From the NCBI GenBank assembly GCA_000431275.1, contig HF989214.1:67981-83462 (forward strand): DNA of 15,482 nucleotides. Direction: 5' to 3'. Origin of the DNA: Prevotella sp. CAG:755. GTDB taxonomy: Bacteria > Bacteroidota > Bacteroidia > Bacteroidales > Bacteroidaceae. The position numbers and the translations under genes are program-made. This document shows positions 314 to 12,660 of this stretch, one piece after another. The notes under the pieces were generated by a model. It was not told the origin of the DNA and ran no database searches. It saw only the letters and a list, made by a program, of their open reading frames with translations. The stretch's first letter is position 1. Every line of letters starts with the position of its first letter.

Positions 314-1132
314 ATGGAAAGAAGCTGGACTCCCATCAAGCAGTACGAAGACATCCTCTTCGACAGTTATCACGGCATTGCCCGCATCACCATCAACCGC
401 CCCCGTTACCGCAACGCGTTCACCCCGCTCACCGTGGCCGAGATGAGCGATGCCCTCCGCCATTGCCGCGAAGCGCAGGACATCAGCGTCGTCGTCCTCA
501 CCGGAGCCGGCGACAAGGCCTTCTGCTCGGGCGGAGACATGCATGTGAAAGGCCACGGGGGCTATGTCGGCCAAGACGGAGTGCCCCGCCTGAACGTGCT
601 CGACGTGCAGAAACAGATACGCTCACTGCCCAAACCCGTCATCGCCATGGTCAACGGCTACGCCATCGGCGGCGGCCACGTGCTGCACCTTATGTGTGAC
701 CTCACCATAGCCTCTGACAACGCCATTTTCGGACAGACAGGACCGCGCGTCGGTTCTTTCGACGCCGGCTTCGGCGCCTCGTACCTCGCCCGCATCGTCG
801 GCCAGAAGAAAGCCCGCGAGATATGGTTCATGTGCCGCCAATACTCCGCCGACGAAGCCGAACGCATGGGCATGGTCAACAAGGTGGTTCCGTTCGGCCG
901 GCTTGAAGACGAAGTCGTCGCCTGGGCCGAAACAATGATGGAACACTCCCCGCTCGCCCTGCGCATGATCAAGGCCGGCCTGAATGCCGAACTCGACGGC
1001 CAGACCGGCATTCAGGAGCTCGCAGGCGACGCCACGATGCTCTATTACATGCTCGACGAAGCCCAAGAAGGCGGGCGGGCTTTCTTGGAAAAGCGCAAAC
1101 CTGACTTCAAAAAGTTTCCCAAACTTCCCTAA
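314..1132 (+). CDS. menB: 1,4-dihydroxy-2-naphthoyl-CoA synthase MenB
   Basis: MenB closes the second ring of the menaquinone head group by converting o-succinylbenzoyl-CoA to 1,4-dihydroxy-2-naphthoyl-CoA in the cytoplasm. The 272-residue product has the normal length for the family and a crotonase fold. The oxyanion-hole segments are visible as CSGGD (71-75) and NGYAIGGGH (114-122), and the MenB-specific motif [10 protein letters not shown] is at 141-150. A Gly in the QTG position is typical of the bicarbonate-dependent type I enzymes; that assignment rests on family knowledge. The C-terminal [13 protein letters not shown] also fits MenB. ATG at 314 is the only sensible start. menC follows after three bases, so menB, menC and menE are cotranscribed. 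menF and menD are not next to it here; the upstream neighbour is tRNA-Cys. Confidence 0.96.
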
Positions 1133-1135
1133 GCC

Positions 1136-2170
1136 ATGAGCCTTCATCTCAACCTGCGCCCGCACCGCCTGCAGTTCAAGGAAGAAGCCCGTACCTCGCG
1201 TGGCAGCTACAGCGTGCACGACGTCTGGTATGTCCGCATGACGGCCGACGAAATCCCGGGGCACGAAGGCATCGGCGAATGTGCCCCCCTGCCCGACCTG
1301 AGCTGCGACGCCCTGCCCGGTCACTACGAAACGGTGCTCCGTCGGGAATGCCAGGTCGTTGAAGCGACTGGACGTATCGACACCGATCGCCTGCGTCCTT
1401 ATCCTTCCATGCTTTTCGGCCTCGAAACCGCTTGGCTCCACTTACAGGCCGGCTCTCCACGCCTTTTCGACACTGCGTTCAGTCGAGGCGAAGCAGGTAT
1501 CATGATCAACGGACTGGTCTGGATGGGCGATTTCACGACGATGATGCGGCGCCTCGAAGCAAAGCTGGAAGCAGGTTATCATTGCGTGAAACTCAAAATC
1601 GGCGCCATCCGTTTTGACGAGGAACTTGAACTCGTCCGTCACATCCGCCAGCGTTTTTCCGCCGCCGATATCGAACTCCGCCTCGACGCCAACGGCGCTT
1701 TCCAACCCGACGAGGCCCTCGGCAAGCTCAACCAGCTCGCAGCCTACGACATCCACAGCATCGAACAACCCATCCGCGCCGGCCAGCCTGACGCCATGGC
1801 GCGACTATGCCGCGAGAGCCCCATCAGCATCGCCCTCGACGAAGAACTCATCGGCATCCACTCACCCGAAGCCAAACGAACGTTACTCGAAACAGTGCGC
1901 CCACATTATATAATAATAAAGCCGTCATTGCATGGTGCTCTGAGCGGTGCGGCCGAATGGGCAGCAGAAGCGCGGCGGATAGGCATCCGCTACTGGATGA
2001 CAAGCGCCCTGGAAAGCAACGTCGGACTGAACGCCATCGCACAGTGGACTGCCCACCATTTCCACGACACCGTGCCCCTCCCGCAAGGATTGGGCACCGG
2101 ACAACTCTACGAGAACAACATTCCTTCGCCACTGCAAATCATCGGCGACCGCCTCTGGTACAAAGCATGA
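1136..2170 (+). CDS. menC: o-succinylbenzoate synthase MenC
   Basis: MenC dehydrates SHCHC to o-succinylbenzoate. The 344-residue protein belongs to the enolase superfamily. A capping domain occupies about 1-120, and a barrel carries the expected catalytic set: VKLKIG with Lys152 and Lys154, metal ligands Asp184 (LRLDANG), Glu210 (IEQP) and Asp235 (ALDEE), and the second catalytic lysine Lys262 in IIKPSLHG. All key residues are present, so it should be active. It starts three bases after menB. Its TGA stop overlaps the ATG of menE (ATGA), which implies translational coupling. Enolase-superfamily members can also be dipeptide epimerases or N-acylamino acid racemases, but the position between menB and menE settles the role. 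Confidence 0.94.
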   Translation: MSLHLNLRPHRLQFKEEARTSRGSYSVHDVWYVRMTADEIPGHEGIGECAPLPDLSCDALPGHYETVLRRECQVVEATGRIDTDRLRPYPSMLFGLETAWLHLQAGSPRLFDTAFSRGEAGIMINGLVWMGDFTTMMRRLEAKLEAGYHCVKLKIGAIRFDEELELVRHIRQRFSAADIELRLDANGAFQPDEALGKLNQLAAYDIHSIEQPIRAGQPDAMARLCRESPISIALDEELIGIHSPEAKRTLLETVRPHYIIIKPSLHGALSGAAEWAAEARRIGIRYWMTSALESNVGLNAIAQWTAHHFHDTVPLPQGLGTGQLYENNIPSPLQIIGDRLWYKA

Positions 2171-3174
2171 CACACGACACATCTTTCATTCAGTCCGTCG
2201 ACGCCTTCATCGCCGACTGGAAAAGCGACCGACCGACAATGACGGTGCACACCTCCGGCTCCACGGGAACGCCAAAAGCCATTGAAGTCGGAAAAGCATG
2301 CATGGCGGCCAGCGCGCAGATGACCTGCGAATTTCTCGGACTACGACCGGGCCAGTCCGCCCTGCTTTGTCTGCCGGTGGAATACATTGCCGGGAAGATG
2401 GTCATCGTCCGCGCCCTTACCTGCGGTCTGCGCCTGCTTCCCGTCGAACCATCGTCACACCCATTGTCTGGACTTGAAAAATCGCCCGACTTCGCGGCCT
2501 TTGTCCCCTCCCAAGTTTACGAAACACTCCGTATACCCGAAGAGGCCCGATGCTTCGAAGGCATCAGGCAAACACTCATTGGCGGCGGCGCCATAGCGCC
2601 AGACTTACAAGAGCGGCTGCGCGAACTGCCCAATCCGGTCTGGAGCACATACGGCATGACCGAAACCCTCTCCCATATTGCCTTACGCCGCCTGAACGGC
2701 CCCGAAGCCTCAGACTGGTACACTCCGCTACCCGGCGTCGAGGTCGGCCTGAATGAGTCTGACTGCCTCACGGTCTACGTTCCTCGTGTCAACCCCTCCC
2801 GTCTCACCACCCATGACCTCGCCGAACTGCGACCCGACGGCCGGTTCCGTATTATAGGCCGAAGCGACAACACCGTCAACAGCGGCGGCGTAAAGATACA
2901 ACTTGAAGACGTCGAAGCAGCACTTCGCCTCAGGCTCGCCCGTCCGTTCATGGCCACTTCTGTACCCGACGAGAAGTATGGCGAAGTCCTCGTCCTGCTC
3001 ATTGAAGGAAGCCCTTTGGATGGGGGAACGCTCAACTCGTTGTGCGCCAAATGTCTATCAGCCTATCACCGTCCCAAACACTATTTCTTCATCGACCGGC
3101 TTCCTGTCACGGTCAGCGGAAAGCCCGCCCGTAAAGAGGCCCGCACCATTGCACGCAAGATGGTGGACGGATAA
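2167..3174 (+). CDS. menE: o-succinylbenzoate-CoA ligase MenE, short form
   Basis: MenE adenylates o-succinylbenzoate and transfers it to CoA, making the substrate of MenB. The 335-residue product is an ANL-superfamily adenylate-forming enzyme. Visible motifs are the phosphate loop TSGSTGTPK (29-37), YGMTET (162-167), the hinge region GRSDNTVNSGGVKI (231-244) and the C-terminal catalytic lysine in VSGKPARKE (Lys319). The start at 2167 overlaps the menC stop and gives ordinary operon spacing. The frame stays open back to 1807, but those 120 codons lie within menC and have no MenE character. With this start the phosphate loop is almost at the N terminus, so the N-terminal subdomain of about 120 residues found in longer MenE proteins is missing. 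No downstream men gene is visible. Confidence 0.92.
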   Translation: MTHDTSFIQSVDAFIADWKSDRPTMTVHTSGSTGTPKAIEVGKACMAASAQMTCEFLGLRPGQSALLCLPVEYIAGKMVIVRALTCGLRLLPVEPSSHPLSGLEKSPDFAAFVPSQVYETLRIPEEARCFEGIRQTLIGGGAIAPDLQERLRELPNPVWSTYGMTETLSHIALRRLNGPEASDWYTPLPGVEVGLNESDCLTVYVPRVNPSRLTTHDLAELRPDGRFRIIGRSDNTVNSGGVKIQLEDVEAALRLRLARPFMATSVPDEKYGEVLVLLIEGSPLDGGTLNSLCAKCLSAYHRPKHYFFIDRLPVTVSGKPARKEARTIARKMVDG

Positions 3175-5290: not shown

Positions 5291-6193
5291 TTACGCCCGC
5301 AACGCTTGTTGTTCGTTACGGAGTTTCTGCAATTCTTCTTCCTGCTTTTCGCGATTCCTGGCCTTACTGATTATTGAAGCCGCCATAAGGCTGCGTGGCC
5401 AAATAGCCAAGAGCGTCGAAAGGTGCATGCCGGTCCCTCCAAGCCACGCTACGATGAAATACAGCCATGCCGCATAAGCCGGCATACCCGGCAGGTCTCC
5501 GTTCAACTCTCCGATACGTGAGACAAAGTAGCTGGCCGACAGCACGACCGTCGGAAGAAAAAGGACCGACGAACAGACACATACCGCGACCCATCCTGTA
5601 AACTGAACAAGGAACCAGCTACCCGTGGATTTCAGCCCCTCACTGCGCAACAAGTCGAACGCACGACGGGGCGAACAGTCCTCTGTAAGCATGAATTGCG
5701 ACCACAGACCACCCACCACAGAAAGCGCTATCACGACAGCCACGGCCACCCACCACCACGCACTCAGCCGAAAAGCCGCATACACACAGCCTACAAAAGC
5801 AACCACCGTCAGCACGAACAACAACAAACTGACAATTGAACGTGGCAGACGCCGTCTGAGATTGTCGAGAAAAGCATATGAGCTACGCACCGGCAGTTCG
5901 CCCGTCGCACGGAAAAAGTCCATCTGTACGTAGGCTGCACTTTGCCACATGGCTGTGGCTAGCCCGTAAAACAGAAGAAGGATGCCCAACACGACAAGTG
6001 CCGTCGGCGTCAGCCATTGATAATAGACGAACAACAGGAAAGCAATCAAGGCTATTCCAGCGCCGGACAAGACAGCTTGCGGCCAAGCATATTTCAGCAC
6101 AGCACGGTAGCCGTTGAAAACCGTACGCCAGGCCATGGCCACACAAGCCTGATAGCTGCGTTCATTATAGAAAACGGAAGTTTCTTCTTTCAT
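5291..6193 (-). CDS. uncharacterised multi-pass membrane protein
   Basis: The 300-residue product (start MKEETSVFYNERSY) has about six hydrophobic helices. They include a pair near residues 40-90, a pair near 118-165, and two more near 197-220 and 240-270. A charged, probably coiled-coil tail follows (NREKQEEELQKLRNEQ). The frame can be extended 20 codons upstream to 6253. That would place the -7 promoter box at 6222-6229 inside the gene, and the extension has no family-like character, so I chose the ATG at 6193. No catalytic or transport motif is recognised. It is the only minus-strand gene of the window, convergent with the FHA operon and divergent from the fusion gene at 6435. Confidence 0.8.
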   Translation of the reverse strand: MKEETSVFYNERSYQACVAMAWRTVFNGYRAVLKYAWPQAVLSGAGIALIAFLLFVYYQWLTPTALVVLGILLLFYGLATAMWQSAAYVQMDFFRATGELPVRSSYAFLDNLRRRLPRSIVSLLLFVLTVVAFVGCVYAAFRLSAWWWVAVAVVIALSVVGGLWSQFMLTEDCSPRRAFDLLRSEGLKSTGSWFLVQFTGWVAVCVCSSVLFLPTVVLSASYFVSRIGELNGDLPGMPAYAAWLYFIVAWLGGTGMHLSTLLAIWPRSLMAASIISKARNREKQEEELQKLRNEQQALRA

Positions 6194-6221
6194 GATTAAT
6201 CGACTTATCAGTTTGTCAGCG

Positions 6222-6229
6222 CAAAGGTA
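6222..6229 (-). promoter_or_regulatory. -7 box for the minus-strand membrane protein gene
   Basis: Read on the minus strand this is TACCTTTG, matching TAnnTTTG. Transcription would start near 6215, leaving a leader of roughly 22 bases before the ATG at 6193. No good TTTG stands at -33. This box is the main argument for the shorter start. Confidence 0.6.
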
Positions 6230-6404
6230 AGCAAATTTTATATGCCCTGCCACGCCTGTAAGCCTTCTTAATGCATCTTCAACAAAGTTTTACCCCGCAG
6301 GTGTGCGGCCCGCCAGCCGAGAAACACATCGAGAGGCAAACACTGGTCTACATTCATTACGGACAAAAACAGAGTAAGCCTGTAAAGAAAATAAAAAAAC
6401 TGCG

Positions 6405-6434: not shown

Positions 6435-9400
6435 ATGAATAGGCTTATCGACTTTTTCCTCGCAGAAGCAGATGCTCCAAAAACATCGGCAACCTGTACA
6501 CATATAGCCACACACCCTCTTATCAACCGACTGTTCCGTGTAGGCCCGCCTCAGGCCGGATCGCCCGTACCGGACGAAAATGCCGAACGCCTGACATGTG
6601 AAAGCATCAGCGACATGCGCTTCCTCCGCTTGGTCTCACGCAAAGCCAGCGCCCCCTATGTCATGTTCTTCCTGCGCCCCGTCGCGCTGAACCTAGGCTA
6701 CCGCTGCATCGAACGCTTTGCCGAGATAGCAGAAGACAGTGGCGGGATTTTCTATTATTCCGACCGTTACGACATCGTCGACGGTACGCAGAAGCCTCAT
6801 CTCGTTGCGGACTACCAAGAAGGCAGTCTGCGCGACGATTTCGACTTCGGTGGCCTCGTTATGCTACGCACGGAAGCCCTGAGGGCCTTCATTAAATCCG
6901 AAGGGCACCTGCGCCTGCACCACGCAGCCCGCTACGCCCTCCGTCTTTTCCTAAGCCGTAACGGTCAGCTTTGCCACATACGCGAGGCACTCTATGCCGA
7001 AGAACTGACAGACCGCCGCACCAGCGGCGCCAAGCAATTCGACTACGTCAATCCCAGCAACCAAACGGTGCAGGCAGAAATGGAACGTGTCTGCACTGCC
7101 CACCTGAAAGCCATCGATGCCTGGCTTGCCCCAGACGAATTCAGCGAACCGGACCTGAATGCCATTCCTTTCGAGATCGAAGCTTCGGTGATTATCCCCG
7201 TACGCAACCGCGTCCGTACCATTGCCGACGCGGTGCGCAGTGCCCTTGGACAACAGGCTGACTTCCAGTTCAATATCCTCGTAGTCGACAACCATTCAAC
7301 CGACGGAACTACTGATATTCTCCGCGCGTTAGCCAAAGAAAACGAGCGGGTTATCCATCTCATTCCAGCACGCAGGGATCTCGGTATAGGCGGCTGTTGG
7401 GACACAGCCATACGACATGAACGTTGCGGAAAGTTTGCCGTACAGCTCGACTCTGACGACTTGTACAGTTCATCCCACACGTTGCAAACCCTTGTCAATG
7501 CCTTCTATGCCCAACACGCGGCAATGGTCATCGGCGCATACCGAATGGTCGACTTCAACCTGTCGACCATTCCACCCGGCCTCATCGCGCACAAAGAGTG
7601 GACCGCCACCAACGGTCGCAACAACGCTCTGCGTGTCAACGGACTAGGCGCCCCGCGCGCATTCTATGTTCCGCTGCTGCGCAAATGGGGCTTCCCAAAC
7701 ACATCCTACGGCGAAGATTACGCCCTTGGCCTTCACTTTTCGCGTTACTACCGAATCGGCCGTATTTATGACGAAGTCTATCTATGCCGTCGATGGGAGG
7801 GCAATTCCGACGCCGACCTCCCCATCGAGAAAGTCAACAGCCACAATGCCTACAAAGACAGCCTCCGGACCCAGGAAGTGCGCGCACGCCAAGCCCTCAA
7901 CCACCTTTGGCGTCACAAGCTTGACAAGGCTGAAGCCGAAAGCTTCTTTGAACAGCAAATGGCCACATGGCCCGAGACGAAAAAACGTTATCAGGAACTG
8001 GATTCACTGGTGGAGGTACATCCGCTTCCATTGGGCGACGAACACAGCCTTTGCGTACAGTTTAATCCGGCACGTAGCCGTTCGACGGAAGCAAAAGTCG
8101 ACCGTAAAAGTGTGGAAAACCGCCCCTGCTTCCTTTGCACACACAACCGGCCCGCAGAGCAGGACGCATTGGCTGTGGAGGGTAAATTCAACCTGCTTGT
8201 CAACCCCTATCCTATCCTCAACAGCCACTTCACTCTGCCCACGCGACGCCATGTGCCGCAACGGTTGGCGCCCTATTTCGGTGACCTCTGCCGAATGACT
8301 TGGGCGATGCCTGGTTACATCTTTATTTATAACGGAGCTTTCTGCGGCGCCTCTGCGCCCGACCACGCACACTTCCAAGCAGGACGCCGGGGACGCGTCC
8401 CGCTCGAACGCGATTGGAAGCGTTATGAAAACGCGCTCGAAAAGCTCTATCCTCTTGGAGGGAAAGAAGAGGCAGAACTCGAGGAACTCGGCTACACAGA
8501 CAAGAGCTGCGGAATCTACCTGCTACATGGCTACGTCTGTCCGGCTTTCGTTATCCGCACACACCACACGGAGGGCAGCTTCCCGCTGTTCCACAAAGTG
8601 TTTAGTAATCTACCGCTCCGCCCCGGCCACTATGAGCCCGACGTCAACGTACTGGCGTGGCGCCAGCAAGGCTTCGGAGCCGACGCCGACGAACTGGTCG
8701 TGATCATCATCCCGCGGGCAAAACACCGGCCATCGTGCTACACGGCAGCAGGCGACAGGCAAATACGCGTCAGCCCAGGCGCCATCGACATGGGCGGTTG
8801 CCTCATCACACCAAGAGCCGAAGACTTCAAACGCATGACGCCCGAACTCGCAGCACAGATTCTGAAAGAAGTAACCCTTCCTGAAACCGAGGTGAAACGC
8901 ATCGCCAACAAGCTGCAGGCTCCGGAAACTATGCCAGGCACAGAAACCGAAGACCACACCTTGGACGCCATGGTCACTGAGCCTAACGTCAACGTTGGCA
9001 TTATGCACGACACGTCGATTACCTTTACGCTACACGGCCCCTTCACCGCCAAAGGAAAGAGCGTGACCGGCACGGGCCATGTGTCATGTAGCGAAGGATG
9101 TATCCTTTGGAACGGCGAACTTTACAGCGAGCTGATCTTCACACCCGAAAAGCCGGACAGCACATTCACGCTGCACGGCGTGTCGATAGGCATCGGCTTT
9201 CACTGGGAGCGGAAAGAAGACGAGACTTTTGCAGGAAGCCTCCGGCTCATCGTGGAGGACGACAAAGTCATCGCCATCAACACCATTCCGGCAGAAGATT
9301 ACCTCACGAGTGTCATCAGTAGCGAAATGCGCGCGACCTCTTCGCTCGAACTGCTCAAAACGCACGCCATCGTGTCGCGTAGCTGGCTCTTTTCGCAGAT

Positions 9401-10283
9401 AAGTCGCGGCAACACGACCGGAGGGGGCAACTCCTATTTTTCATTTCCCCGGAAAGACGGCGAACATATCCGATGGTATGACCGCGAAGAGCATACGCTT
9501 TTCGACGTCTGCGCCGACGATCACTGTCAGCGTTACCAAGGCATCACACGTGCGACGAATCCAGCCGTCCGTAAAGCAGTTGAGGCGACGCGCGGGATGG
9601 TACTTGTCAGTGCGGGCGAACTTTGCGACACCCGTTTCTCAAAATGCTGCGGCGGCGTCACAGAGGAATACGCCTCATGCTGGGAAGACAAAAATATGCC
9701 ATACCTGACAGCCACACGCGATACCGCTACGGAAACGACCGCCCCCGACCTCACGAACGAGGTCGAGGCAGAACGGTGGATCAGGTCGACACCGGCATCA
9801 TTCTGCCACACCAGCAACAAAAACACGCTGCGCCAAGTGCTCAACGACTACGACCAAGAAACCAACGACTTCTACCGCTGGAAAGTGGAATACACACAAG
9901 CAGAAATAGCAGCTCTCATCCGAGAAAAACGCGGAGAAGATTTTGGCGCCATCGTTGACCTCGTTCCGGTACAGCGTGGAACAAGCGGCCGACTCGTCAA
10001 ACTGAAAATCGTAGGTACCGCCAAGACTCTCGTCATTGGAAAAGAGTTGGAAATCCGCCGCACCCTGTCAGCCACTCACCTTTACAGCTCTGCATTCGTC
10101 GTCGACCGGGAGGACGTTTGCAACGGTGTCCCCGGACGCTTCGTGCTTACCGGTGCCGGCTGGGGGCACGGCGTGGGCATGTGCCAAATCGGCGCCGCTG
10201 TGATGAGTGAGAAAGGAGCTACCTACGAAAAGATACTGCACCATTATTATAAAGGCGCAGAACTGAAAAAACTATACTCATGA
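6435..10283 (+). CDS. multidomain fusion: GT2 glycosyltransferase, DUF4922 (HIT/GalT-like), SpoIID/LytB
   Basis: This is one uninterrupted frame of 1282 residues. Residues about 70-190 look like a degenerate GT-A segment without a DxD. Residues about 250-455 form a family 2 glycosyltransferase ([22 protein letters not shown] at 339-342, GEDY at 426-429). Residues about 505-800 match DUF4922. They carry CFLC (565-568) and HAHFQ (644-648), which recall the zinc CxxC and catalytic HxHxQ of GalT and HIT-type nucleotidyltransferases. Residues about 850-1282 form a SpoIID/LytB domain: IPAEDYL and SSEM (Glu964 the likely catalytic acid), a C1026/H1030/C1031 cluster that may bind zinc, CCGG (1071-1074) and [10 protein letters not shown] (1245-1254). 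SpoIID enzymes cleave denuded peptidoglycan glycan strands. No signal peptide or membrane helix is visible, although SpoIID normally acts outside the cytoplasm. The stop overlaps the AmpG-like gene. The joint function is unknown. Confidence 0.88.
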
Positions 10284-11551
10284 AAAACGTAGTACGCCGT
10301 TCGCCGTGGGCTTGGGTCCCGTCGCTTTATTTCGCCGAGGGCATCCCTTATGTCGTAGTCATGTCGATCGCCACGGTCATGTACAAACGGCTCGGATTGA
10401 CAAACACCGAAATCGCCCTCTACACCAGCTGGCTCTACTTGCCATGGGTTATTAAGCCCTTTTGGAGCCCATTAGTCGATCTTGTCAGTACCAAACGGTG
10501 GTGGGTCGTAGCGATGCAACTACTTGTCGGCGCGTCGCTCGGCGGCGTCGCTTTTACACTCCACCTGCCCGCAGCTGTCCAAGGCTCGCTTGCCTTTTTC
10601 TGGCTGATGGCATTTAGTAGCGCGACGCATGACATCGCTGCTGACGGATACTACATGCTGGCGCTCGATTCTCATAAACAGTCGCTTTATGTCGGCATCC
10701 GAAGCACGTTCTACCGCTTGGCTACCATCGCCGGACAGGGCGTGCTCATCATGGTGGCCGGAGCGCTTGAAGTCTACACCAAAGAGGTGACATACGCGTG
10801 GAGCCTGACACTCTATCTGACTGCCGGGTTATTCCTTGCACTCTGCCTCTACCACCAGTTTATCTTGCCCCGCCCCGCAGCCGACAGCCTCCGCAAAGTG
10901 GAGCCACGACATATCGTGCAACAATTTGCCGACACCTTTGTCTCGTTCTTTCGCAAACCCGGCATTTTGACAGCTGTACTCTTCATGCTTTTCTACCGTT
11001 TTCCAGAAGCTATGCTGACCAAGATTTGCCCCTTGTTTATGCTTGAAGCGAAAGGTACTGGGGGACTTGGCCTGTCGACATCCGAGTTAGGTTTTGTCCA
11101 AGGTACGGTCGGCGTCATCGGACTGACCATTGGCGGCATAGTCGGTGGTATCGCGGCGGCCAAAGGCGGATTGCGACGGTGGTTGTGGCCAATGGTGTGG
11201 AGCATTTCGTTACCTAATGTTGTATACATTTACCTCAGCTATTTCCAACCCGACAACTTCTTCATCATCAACGCCTGCGTTTTCGTCGAACAGTTCGGCT
11301 ATGGTTTCGGGTTTACTGCTTATATGCTCTATCTCATCTACTTTTCACGTGGAAGTAATCAAACGGCGCACTACGCGCTCTGCACCGCTTTCATGGCAGC
11401 CGGCATGATGTTCCCGGGAATGATTGCAGGATGGCTACAAGAACAAATCGGATACCTGAACTTCTTCAACCTCGTCCTTGTGCTCTGTCTGATGACTGTG
11501 GGTGTCGCAAAGCTCATTAAAATCGACCCGAAATTCGGAATAAAAGAATGA
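10280..11551 (+). CDS. AmpG-like MFS transporter, probable muropeptide permease
   Basis: The 423-residue protein has about 12 hydrophobic helices and the major-facilitator pattern. Features recalling AmpG are an N-terminal [10 protein letters not shown] (16-24), the loop KPFWSPLVD (59-67) and [12 protein letters not shown] (113-124), which corresponds to the SxQDIxxDAY region of AmpG. AmpG imports GlcNAc-anhydroMurNAc and its peptides from the periplasm for cell-wall recycling. Its ATG overlaps the stop of the SpoIID-containing gene (ATGA), so the two are translationally coupled. This supports a peptidoglycan-derived substrate, but the actual substrate is not shown by sequence and other sugar or solute transport is possible. 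No nagZ, anmK or ampD is visible in the window. Confidence 0.82.
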
Positions 11552-11581
11552 GATTGTTCCATGCGAAAGGGAATTAATTGT

Positions 11582-11589
11582 TATTTTTG
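11582..11589 (+). promoter_or_regulatory. -7 box for galE
   Basis: TATTTTTG fits TAnnTTTG and lies 30 bases before the galE ATG at 11620. A TTG at 11554-11556 is further upstream than the ideal -33 distance, so the upstream element is weak. The box supports galE having its own promoter and a leader of about 25 bases. Confidence 0.55.
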
Positions 11590-11619
11590 CAAGTGAAATA
11601 CTCATTAAACACTACGATA

Positions 11620-12660
11620 ATGAAAAAGACTATTCTGGTAACCGGTGGAACCGGTTTCATCGGTTCGCACACCACTGTCGAACTTCAAAATGCCGGCTAT
11701 GACGTCGTCATCGTAGACAACCTTTCGAATTCGAAAGCAGACGTGGTGGACGGTATCGAAAAAATCACAGGCATCCGTCCGGCCTTCGAAGAGGTGGATT
11801 GCTGTGACAAGGACGCCTTGGACGCCGTGTTTAACAAATATCCCGACATCTGTGGCGTCATCCACTTCGCTGCCAGCAAAGCAGTCGGCGAGAGCGTTGA
11901 AAAACCCTTGAAGTATTATTACAATAATATCGTATCGCTGGTCAACCTGCTTGACCTCATGCCCAAACACGGCGTGAAAGGCATCATCTTCTCATCTTCA
12001 TGTACCGTTTACGGACAGCCGGCTCCCGAAAACTTGCCAGTAACAGAAGAAGCACCCATCCAGAAGGCCGAAAGCCCTTATGGCAACACGAAACAGATCA
12101 ACGAAGAAATCGTTCAGGACTTTGTCAAGAGCGGAGCTCCCATCGGCGCTGTACTGTTGCGCTATTTCAACCCCATCGGCGCCCACCCTACAGCTATCAT
12201 CGGCGAAATGCCTAACGGTGTACCCGCCAACCTTATCCCCTACCTCACCCAAACGGCCATCGGAATCCGCAAGGAACTCGTCGTATTCGGCAACGATTAT
12301 GACACACCCGACGGCACCTGCATCCGCGACTTCATCTATGTGCTCGACTTGGCCAAGGCTCACGTCTGCGCCATGGCCCGCATCCTCGAAGGCAAGCAGG
12401 CAGAACCCGTTGAGGTATTCAATGTGGGTACGGGCAACGGCGTTTCAGTCATGGAACTCATCAACACGTTCGAAAAGTGCACCGGCGTTAAGTTGAACTA
12501 CAAGATTGGCCCGCGCCGTGCCGGCGACATCGAGAAAGTATGGGGCAACGTAGACAAAGCCAACAACGTGCTGGGCTGGAAAGCCGTCCATACGCTTGAA
12601 GAGGCGCTTTCCTCAGCATGGAAGTGGCAGTTGAAGCTGCGCGAAGACGGCATCATGTAA
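11620..12660 (+). CDS. galE: UDP-glucose 4-epimerase
   Basis: GalE interconverts UDP-glucose and UDP-galactose (often also the N-acetyl forms) using bound NAD, feeding surface polysaccharide and galactose metabolism. The 346-residue product is full length. It has the Rossmann motif TGGTGFIGS at 8-16, VDNLSNS (32-38), HFAASKAVGES (82-92), SSSCTVYG (125-132, Ser127 catalytic), YGNTK with Tyr154 and Lys158, and RYFNPIGAHP (181-190). All catalytic residues are present. The open frame extends to 11578, but that segment contains the probable promoter box, and homologues begin at MKKTILVTGG, so I use 11620. The neighbours are not galactose genes; a link to the GT and GalT-like domains of the upstream fusion is possible but speculative. 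Confidence 0.95.
   Translation: MKKTILVTGGTGFIGSHTTVELQNAGYDVVIVDNLSNSKADVVDGIEKITGIRPAFEEVDCCDKDALDAVFNKYPDICGVIHFAASKAVGESVEKPLKYYYNNIVSLVNLLDLMPKHGVKGIIFSSSCTVYGQPAPENLPVTEEAPIQKAESPYGNTKQINEEIVQDFVKSGAPIGAVLLRYFNPIGAHPTAIIGEMPNGVPANLIPYLTQTAIGIRKELVVFGNDYDTPDGTCIRDFIYVLDLAKAHVCAMARILEGKQAEPVEVFNVGTGNGVSVMELINTFEKCTGVKLNYKIGPRRAGDIEKVWGNVDKANNVLGWKAVHTLEEALSSAWKWQLKLREDGIM

Follow-up and report, generated by a model that had tools for sequence, protein, structure and literature searches.

Bacteroidales are dominant bacteria of the gut, and the retention or release of their wall fragments bears on host sensing. Peptidoglycan recycling of the Escherichia coli type proceeds via AmpG, NagZ, AmpD, AnmK and MurQ. 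The closest described system to the one presented here is the operon Tanf_08345-08385 of Tannerella forsythia which, according to the consulted parts of two papers, comprises a large “xanthan lyase”, two glycosyltransferase genes (gtf; Tanf_08350 and Tanf_08355), lytB (Tanf_08360), ampG, ybbC, murT, murK and murQ, is co-transcribed as judged by reverse-transcription PCR and encodes a functional AmpG (PMC5388701, PMC7670621). In the consulted part of the second paper this AmpG is required for growth on fragments of N-acetylglucosaminyl-N-acetylmuramic acid (GlcNAc-MurNAc) and of its anhydro form (GlcNAc-anhydroMurNAc), AnmK is not predicted for this organism, and how the fragments are processed after import is described by the authors as an open question (PMC7670621). 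Here, we describe a related locus in a stretch of 15,482 nucleotides (15.5 kb, the window) from Prevotella sp. CAG:755 (assembly GCA_000431275.1, contig HF989214.1, positions 67,981 to 83,462 of the forward strand), in which one gene encodes a fusion of GT2, DUF4922 and SpoIID domains and is followed by the gene of an AmpG-like permease. Since this trio is devoid of export signals, is accompanied by an importer of disaccharides and tends to be absent where the gene for opening anhydroMurNAc is present, it most likely serves cytosolic steps after AmpG. On balance we consider it rather probable, as judged from sequence data, that the fusion protein carries out the cytosolic part of peptidoglycan recycling in Bacteroidales, by a route that would dispense with AnmK and act on GlcNAc-(anhydro)MurNAc imported by AmpG. 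A specialist would not expect a SpoIID that is probably cytosolic, nor a module that is opposed to AnmK. The elements concerned are the following.

6435..10283, plus strand: gene of the three-enzyme fusion protein, 1282 residues (from open reading frame (ORF), translation, Pfam/NCBIfam and hydropathy)
6435..7907, plus strand: tandem GT-A region: a glycosyltransferase-like half at the N-terminus (about residues 1-240), then a complete GT2 of the inverting type (about residues 247-491)
7929..8924, plus strand: DUF4922 domain, residues 499-830, Apa2/GalT-type HIT-superfamily phosphorylase-like, with HAHFQ at 644-648 and CFLC at 565-568
8973..10280, plus strand: SpoIID domain, residues 847-1282, with the catalytic-type Glu964 and the zinc-type motif H1020-x5-C1026-x3-H1030-C1031
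10280..11551, plus strand: AmpG-like permease of the major facilitator superfamily, 423 residues (from ORF, TIGR00901 as best family and matches to AmpG entries of the Protein Data Bank)

The fusion chain consists of a tandem GT2, a DUF4922 and a SpoIID domain, each above its Pfam cut-off, and its ORF shares four bases with that of the permease (ATGA at 10280-10283). Hydropathy maxima of 0.92 at the N-terminus (max12) and 1.07 over the whole chain (max19) reveal neither a signal peptide nor a transmembrane helix. The first-pass annotation of this DNA had read the 1282-residue frame with the three domains and the ATGA overlap from the letters alone, and ORFs, Pfam and NCBIfam confirm it. In a protein search, in which 7995 candidates (all of a length similar to that of the fusion) were scored, the 120 listed homologs contain all three domains in a single chain. 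A relative with an 88% identical fusion and a gene order much like that of the window is found in Candidatus Caccomonas pullistercoris (locus L001), and the window probably stems from a close relative of it.

One scan of genome contigs returned 328 relatives, of which the best 80 by match to the whole fusion were kept; they carry Bacteroidota names, mostly of Bacteroidales, and together with the window they make up 81 loci. Because they were selected by their match to the entire fusion, unlinked versions are under-sampled among them. Three separate genes are found in 36 loci, GT2 next to a DUF4922-SpoIID fusion in 28, a GT2-DUF4922 fusion next to SpoIID in four and the full fusion in 11; counted without the window, the 80 loci divide into 36 split, 32 half-fused and 10 fully fused ones and two (L052, L066) whose architecture ORF calling left unclear. 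A translated search recovered all three parts in L052 and showed that 80 of the 81 loci have GT2, DUF4922 and SpoIID in this order on a single strand; the remaining one (L066) is cut and shows DUF4922-SpoIID. Split versions in the same order, for which the first-pass annotation had proposed to look, thus exist as separate genes in 36 of 81 loci. On the operon tree (79 of the 81 loci) 6-7 changes apply to the DUF4922-SpoIID fusion and 2-3 to the GT2-DUF4922 fusion. The fusion of the window is one among several independent fusions and not a new kind of system; that it arose as a mere accident or artefact was considered and rejected in view of its 11 occurrences among the loci (window counted) and the 120 listed proteins of similar length.

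In 70 of the 81 loci an AmpG gene follows downstream of the module; 65 of these have it immediately next, and in five it is separated by 0.8-2.8 kb. The AmpG genes of L021 and L070 were detected by translated search only. Five of the 11 remaining loci reach a contig edge, and for the other six (L013, L014, L015, L025, L061, L067) a single AmpG gene is located at another place in the genome, its product being 52-63% identical to the window permease. In three loci (L068, L069, L080) an extra gene for about 820 residues (cluster 56) is inserted between SpoIID and AmpG. The window permease scores 163.7 bits with TIGR00901, for which the curated cut-off of 350 is not reached, and this is still its top listed family (RhtX/FptX follows with 55.8 bits); among solved sequences four match it at E up to 1, each of them an AmpG, the best at E 2.2e-17. 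The idea that the transporter might cluster away from AmpG, put forward earlier as an objection, is thus answered in part by profile comparison: AmpG is the best-matching named family, but the score remains under the curated cut-off. By analogy to T. forsythia AmpG, for which this is known from the consulted part of the paper (PMC7670621), the permease is predicted to be an AmpG-type importer of GlcNAc-anhydroMurNAc. In other genomes matches to the window permease break near residue 168 at an extra stretch of about 190 residues, and of the 68 AmpG-like proteins that ORF calling gave for the loci, 18 have at least 590 and up to 647 residues (e.g., L035:13778-15721, L069:16616-18478, L053:4337-6181).

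For the phylogenomic distribution each search (DUF4922, SpoIID, AmpG, AnmK, MurQ, NagZ) was run on one set of 148 genomes from the order, and the association with GT2 was taken from the 81 loci. The count cut-offs for AmpG, SpoIID and MurQ were chosen after the lists were seen. At E <= 0.001 AmpG matches 48 of 148 genomes, of which 41 with at least 250 bits were counted and seven with 30-63 bits dropped; SpoIID matches 90, of which the 39 above 300 bits were counted as module type; MurQ matches 141, of which 24 exceed the curated cut-off and 33 were counted from 80 bits upwards, including three fragments in genomes that have no DUF4922. DUF4922 occurs in 38 of the 148 genomes and all 38 carriers contain module-type SpoIID and AmpG, which bears out the co-occurrence of these three expected in the first-pass annotation. 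Among the 110 non-carriers module-type SpoIID is found in one (G096) and AmpG in three (G089, G096, G137). G096 (L232) has strong module SpoIID and AmpG matches and no DUF4922 match; rpsC, too, is matched there in two pieces, and the gap is possibly an assembly fault. DUF4922 and SpoIID do not lie within 5 kb of each other in 12 of the 38 carriers, being on different contigs in ten and on one contig in two, at distances of 29 kb (G035) and 1.43 Mb (G130).

AnmK is present in 100 of the 148 genomes, namely in 6 of the 38 carriers of DUF4922 vs 94 of the 110 others (Fisher p 9e-15). Because relatedness inflates the Fisher result, a tree of the 148 genomes was reconstructed from 18 ribosomal proteins, and on this tree a model in which DUF4922 and AnmK depend on each other fits better (Pagel-type likelihood ratio 23.5, df 4, p 1e-4). 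In a smaller set, the ten genomes behind loci, AnmK occurs in two. MurQ (at 80 bits or more) is present in 21 of 38 carriers vs 12 of 110 others (likelihood ratio 16.6, p 0.002). The carriers share with E. coli type recycling the AmpG-like import and, in those 21, MurQ, but differ from it by having AnmK in just six of 38 and no NagZ equivalog above cut-off in the 148 genomes. A search of the open-access literature for AnmK tied to a glycosyltransferase in Bacteroidetes peptidoglycan recycling found nothing.

The SpoIID domain is supported by Pfam PF08486 (residues 942-1058, 77.3 bits vs a cut-off of 23.0) and by the SpoIID/LytB family TIGR02669 (residues 947-1279, 168.4 bits vs 83.3). Its Glu964, H1020, C1026, H1030 and C1031 correspond by motif to E101, H134, C140, H145 and C146 of Clostridioides difficile SpoIID as given in the consulted part of the respective paper (PMC6221140), so the domain looks active (by prediction). 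The catalytic glutamate and the H, C, H, C ligands are invariant in all 60 module SpoIIDs that were aligned out of 81, and the zinc-type motif is found in 81 of 81 module SpoIIDs vs 1 of 19 ordinary ones; the latter were drawn from 20 genomes of the same order that have no DUF4922, 19 of which were readable while one region gave no ORF. By one crude hydropathy rule a signal-like start is seen in 2 of 41 stand-alone module SpoIIDs vs 18 of 19 ordinary SpoIIDs (3 of 41 vs 15 of 19 with ATG-only alternative starts), as well as in 2 of 64 GT2 and 1 of 36 DUF4922 proteins of the loci. Applied to neighbouring proteins for comparison, the same rule marks 50 of 55 NamZ, 24 of 27 large upstream proteins and 0 of 22 MurQ as signal-like. 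With few exceptions a signal peptide or membrane anchor, as expected of an exported SpoIID, was thus not seen in the module SpoIIDs, and as they differ in this from the ordinary SpoIIDs they are probably cytosolic. Compared with SpoIID/LytB lytic transglycosylases, the module version has in common the domain, the catalytic glutamate and the zinc ligands of the C. difficile type, but it is devoid of an export signal, and its partners, as neighbouring genes or in one chain, are GT2 and a transferase of the nucleotide type. What is new here is a module SpoIID with no predicted signal peptide; for a cytoplasmic SpoIID lytic transglycosylase in Bacteroidetes nothing was found in the open-access literature.

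In the GT2 region the Pfam match covers residues 251-384 with 69.1 bits (cut-off 23.3), and with this score and the DxD, ED and RRW motifs (LDSDD at 338, YGED at 425, RRW at 452) the domain belongs to inverting GT2 enzymes. LDSDD is kept in 79 of 79 GT2 sequences of the loci, and E427, D428, R452 and R453 are invariant in the 55 of these that were aligned. Residues 1-240, which had escaped notice before, form a second GT-A-like half in a tandem of the K4CP type. The likeness to this chondroitin polymerase lies in the tandem of glycosyltransferase halves, but a root-mean-square deviation of 21.6 across the tandem span suggests that the halves are oriented differently.

The DUF4922 domain (Pfam match at residues 504-650, 196.9 bits vs a cut-off of 23.6) has, by structure alignment covering the domain and the HxHxQ region, the fold of the yeast Ap4A phosphorylase Apa2, at an identity of 16-18%. 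HxHxQ is present in all 61 DUF4922 sequences that were aligned (of 80). With the Ap4A phosphorylase family PF19327 (cut-off 23.1) the window domain scores 15.7 and the stand-alone domain of L036 26.3 bits, and JGI labels certain DUF4922 proteins as ATP adenylyltransferase/Ap4A phosphorylase II. Apa2 and plant ADP-glucose phosphorylase are HxHxQ transferases as well; DUF4922 differs from them by its adjoining GT2 and SpoIID in 80 of 81 loci. Only plant GGP papers turned up for DUF4922 in the open-access literature.

From here we infer the substrate, the direction and the reaction step of each domain. Secreted enzymes would cut wall material into disaccharides outside the cytosol, the AmpG-like permease would import GlcNAc-MurNAc and GlcNAc-anhydroMurNAc, and the fusion protein would then dismantle both. 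In a first step the intracellular SpoIID may open the 1,6-anhydro-MurNAc ring by running its usual reaction in reverse with water, which would yield GlcNAc-MurNAc. This ring opening is assigned to SpoIID because among the three parts only SpoIID belongs to a family with known action on the anhydro-MurNAc bond, and we regard the assignment as a tentative proposal that may somewhat sooner fail than hold. In a second step GT2 and the Apa2-like DUF4922 could split GlcNAc from MurNAc with conservation of the bond energy: GT2 would transfer GlcNAc to uridine diphosphate (UDP) and DUF4922 would phosphorolyse UDP-GlcNAc to GlcNAc-1-phosphate, a net phosphorolysis that would spare adenosine triphosphate (ATP). 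As written here this second step is doubtful. MurNAc would finally pass to MurK/MurQ where present or to AmgK/MurU. If all this applied, a third way of recycling would exist, in which a reversed lytic transglycosylase and a reversed glycosyltransferase coupled to an Apa2-like phosphorylase, with UDP as catalytic carrier, would convert GlcNAc-anhydroMurNAc, water and phosphate to GlcNAc-1-phosphate and MurNAc with no ATP, all of it channelled in one chain in the lineage of the window; we put this forward as a speculation that is unlikely to hold in full. Plant sucrose synthase is a precedent for the reversed use of a glycosyltransferase.

As to the outlet for MurNAc, a strong MurQ match was found in none of the seven tested genomes with the full fusion (G001, which is the genome of the 88% identical relative, and G158, G159, G160, G010, G161, G162). 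Matches to APH (AmgK type) adjoin MurU-type matches in 6 of 14 genomes (G004, G007, G009, G158, G159, G163), and the adjacent pairs in G158 and G159 make AmgK/MurU-type genes a possible outlet in full-fusion genomes, although this is suggestive only. Two markers were discarded: NagZ matches 143 of 148 genomes at E <= 0.001 and none above its cut-off, with the module or not (the cut-off is exceeded in 3 of 14 control genomes), and the MurU model NF045761 gives no genome above its cut-off, controls included. MurQ matches in G017 and G124 and the AnmK match in G044 sit in frames of 556-563 residues, which suggests fusion with another protein.

Several points weigh against a recycling route that dispenses with AnmK. 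GT2 enzymes normally synthesise, the activities of all module enzymes are predictions, and the match to Apa2 informs on fold and nucleotide chemistry and not on substrate. The link to T. forsythia rests on gene order and not on protein sequences. Moreover, as far as the consulted part of the paper goes, this bacterium grows slightly on free anhydroMurNAc with or without AmpG (PMC7670621), so another route for anhydroMurNAc may exist. Six of the 38 carriers have AnmK too, all six together with MurQ; as AnmK is still present there it has not been replaced. Neither DUF4922 nor AnmK is found in 16 of the 148 genomes, absence calls come from genomes of unchecked completeness, and some of the ten pairs of DUF4922 and SpoIID on different contigs may be contig breaks. 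Finally, in 13 independent pairs of genomes that differ in DUF4922, AnmK changes in the opposite sense in three, in the same sense in one and is equal in nine, so that few independent changes underlie the anticorrelation.

Two rival readings matter most, namely that the AnmK pattern reflects lineage and that GT2 and DUF4922 are used in biosynthesis. If the former applied, clades with the module and clades with AnmK would differ on other grounds, the module would handle GlcNAc-MurNAc only and anhydro sugars would go another route. With just four of the 13 pairs informative, and with T. forsythia growing better on GlcNAc-MurNAc than on GlcNAc-anhydroMurNAc fragments in the consulted part of the paper (PMC7670621), this explanation keeps a real though clearly minor share of probability. 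Against it, the dependent model of DUF4922 and AnmK remains the better one on the ribosomal tree, and T. forsythia, for which the same part of the paper does not predict AnmK, uses GlcNAc-anhydroMurNAc fragments via AmpG (PMC7670621).

The second rival is best weighed together with the gene neighbourhood. In Bacteroides oleiciplenus (L036) the module is flanked on one side by the gene of a large Golvesin-domain protein and on the other by genes for NamZ, for an FAD/FeS oxidase and for proteins of the MurT type (HGSNAT-like, membrane), the MurK type (BadF-type kinase) and the MurQ type (SIS protein). With the labels NamZ and MurT, MurK and MurQ type assigned from these L036 genes, the respective clusters recur in the 81 loci as follows: large upstream protein 28, NamZ 44, FAD/FeS oxidase 13, MurT type 17, MurK type 27 and MurQ type 22. 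The large upstream protein is a secreted one and probably corresponds to the “xanthan lyase” described for T. forsythia; its Amidase_3 match is sub-threshold (17.0 bits vs a cut-off of 27), and to call it an amidase would be a guess. As far as the consulted parts of the papers show, the T. forsythia operon has the same gene order as the split loci, with a matching set in several Bacteroides loci (e.g., L036 and L048), and its order gtf, gtf/DUF4922, lytB (SpoIID), ampG is matched by the window; judged by its place in the operon, Tanf_08355, a glycosyltransferase according to the paper, should correspond to DUF4922. The window differs in that its three enzymes form one chain and galE comes next, and NamZ and murTKQ were not seen in it by ORF, Pfam and NCBIfam scans of the 15.5 kb.

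In this reading DUF4922 might make a nucleotide sugar that GT2 uses to extend an imported muropeptide or to build another glycan which SpoIID trims, with recycling as a source of acceptors only. The synthase motifs retained in GT2 and the resemblance of the tandem to K4CP speak for such a biosynthetic trio, as do, in the consulted parts of the papers, the term glycosylation related operon applied to the T. forsythia cluster with reference to Niwa et al. (PMC5388701) and the absence of glmS and glmU from T. forsythia (PMC5790795), by which another enzyme must make UDP-GlcNAc. We nevertheless consider it unlikely, since the module follows AmpG in all 38 carriers and opposes AnmK, the annotated recurrent neighbours include salvage or catabolic genes, and no flippase or polymerase is seen among the annotated cluster representatives, many clusters being outside that annotation. 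A further reading, implied by the first-pass annotation, takes SpoIID for a common lytic transglycosylase that cuts the wall after export by an unrecognised route and is linked to cytosolic enzymes by chance. The intact catalytic glutamate and zinc motif speak for it, as does the action of the SpoIIDs studied in Bacillus and C. difficile outside the cytoplasm on denuded glycan (consulted part of PMC6221140). It is nevertheless very improbable: by hydropathy 39 of 41 stand-alone copies start without a signal where 18 of 19 ordinary SpoIIDs of the order have one, and fusions to signal-free GT2 and DUF4922 arose several times.

The proposal of the first-pass annotation, one wall-recycling unit of enzymes and AmpG-like permease, gains support from the co-occurrence in 38 of 38 carriers, from GT2 preceding DUF4922 in 80 of 81 loci, from NamZ and MurT-, MurK- and MurQ-type neighbours and from the co-transcribed T. 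forsythia operon with its functional AmpG in the consulted parts of PMC5388701 and PMC7670621. Of the release, import and re-activation of wall sugars ascribed to this unit, import and re-activation fit, with the chemistry of the latter being conjectural, but release by SpoIID is rejected on location, as export is not apparent for the fusion or for the split SpoIIDs. The module itself is not new, its split form being already in print as the T. forsythia operon. The module is thus widespread and partly published, with a strong new lead on the open step: the question of processing after AmpG posed for T. forsythia, in the consulted part of PMC7670621, is narrowed to three proteins encoded together across Bacteroidales.

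Further genes of the window were inspected as well. Close behind the permease gene and on the same strand galE (TIGR01179 equivalog) is located at 11578-12660, and L001 has a gene for 360 residues at the equivalent position. Divergently from the fusion gene a protein of 320 residues, membrane-like by eye, is transcribed from the minus strand at 5291-6253, with zero matches in Pfam and NCBIfam searches. At 314-3174 an enoyl-CoA hydratase, a MenC-like and, by eye, an AMP-ligase-like gene follow in a row after tRNA-Cys; the listed ORF of 455 residues appears to begin upstream of the true start, and these are probably menaquinone genes.

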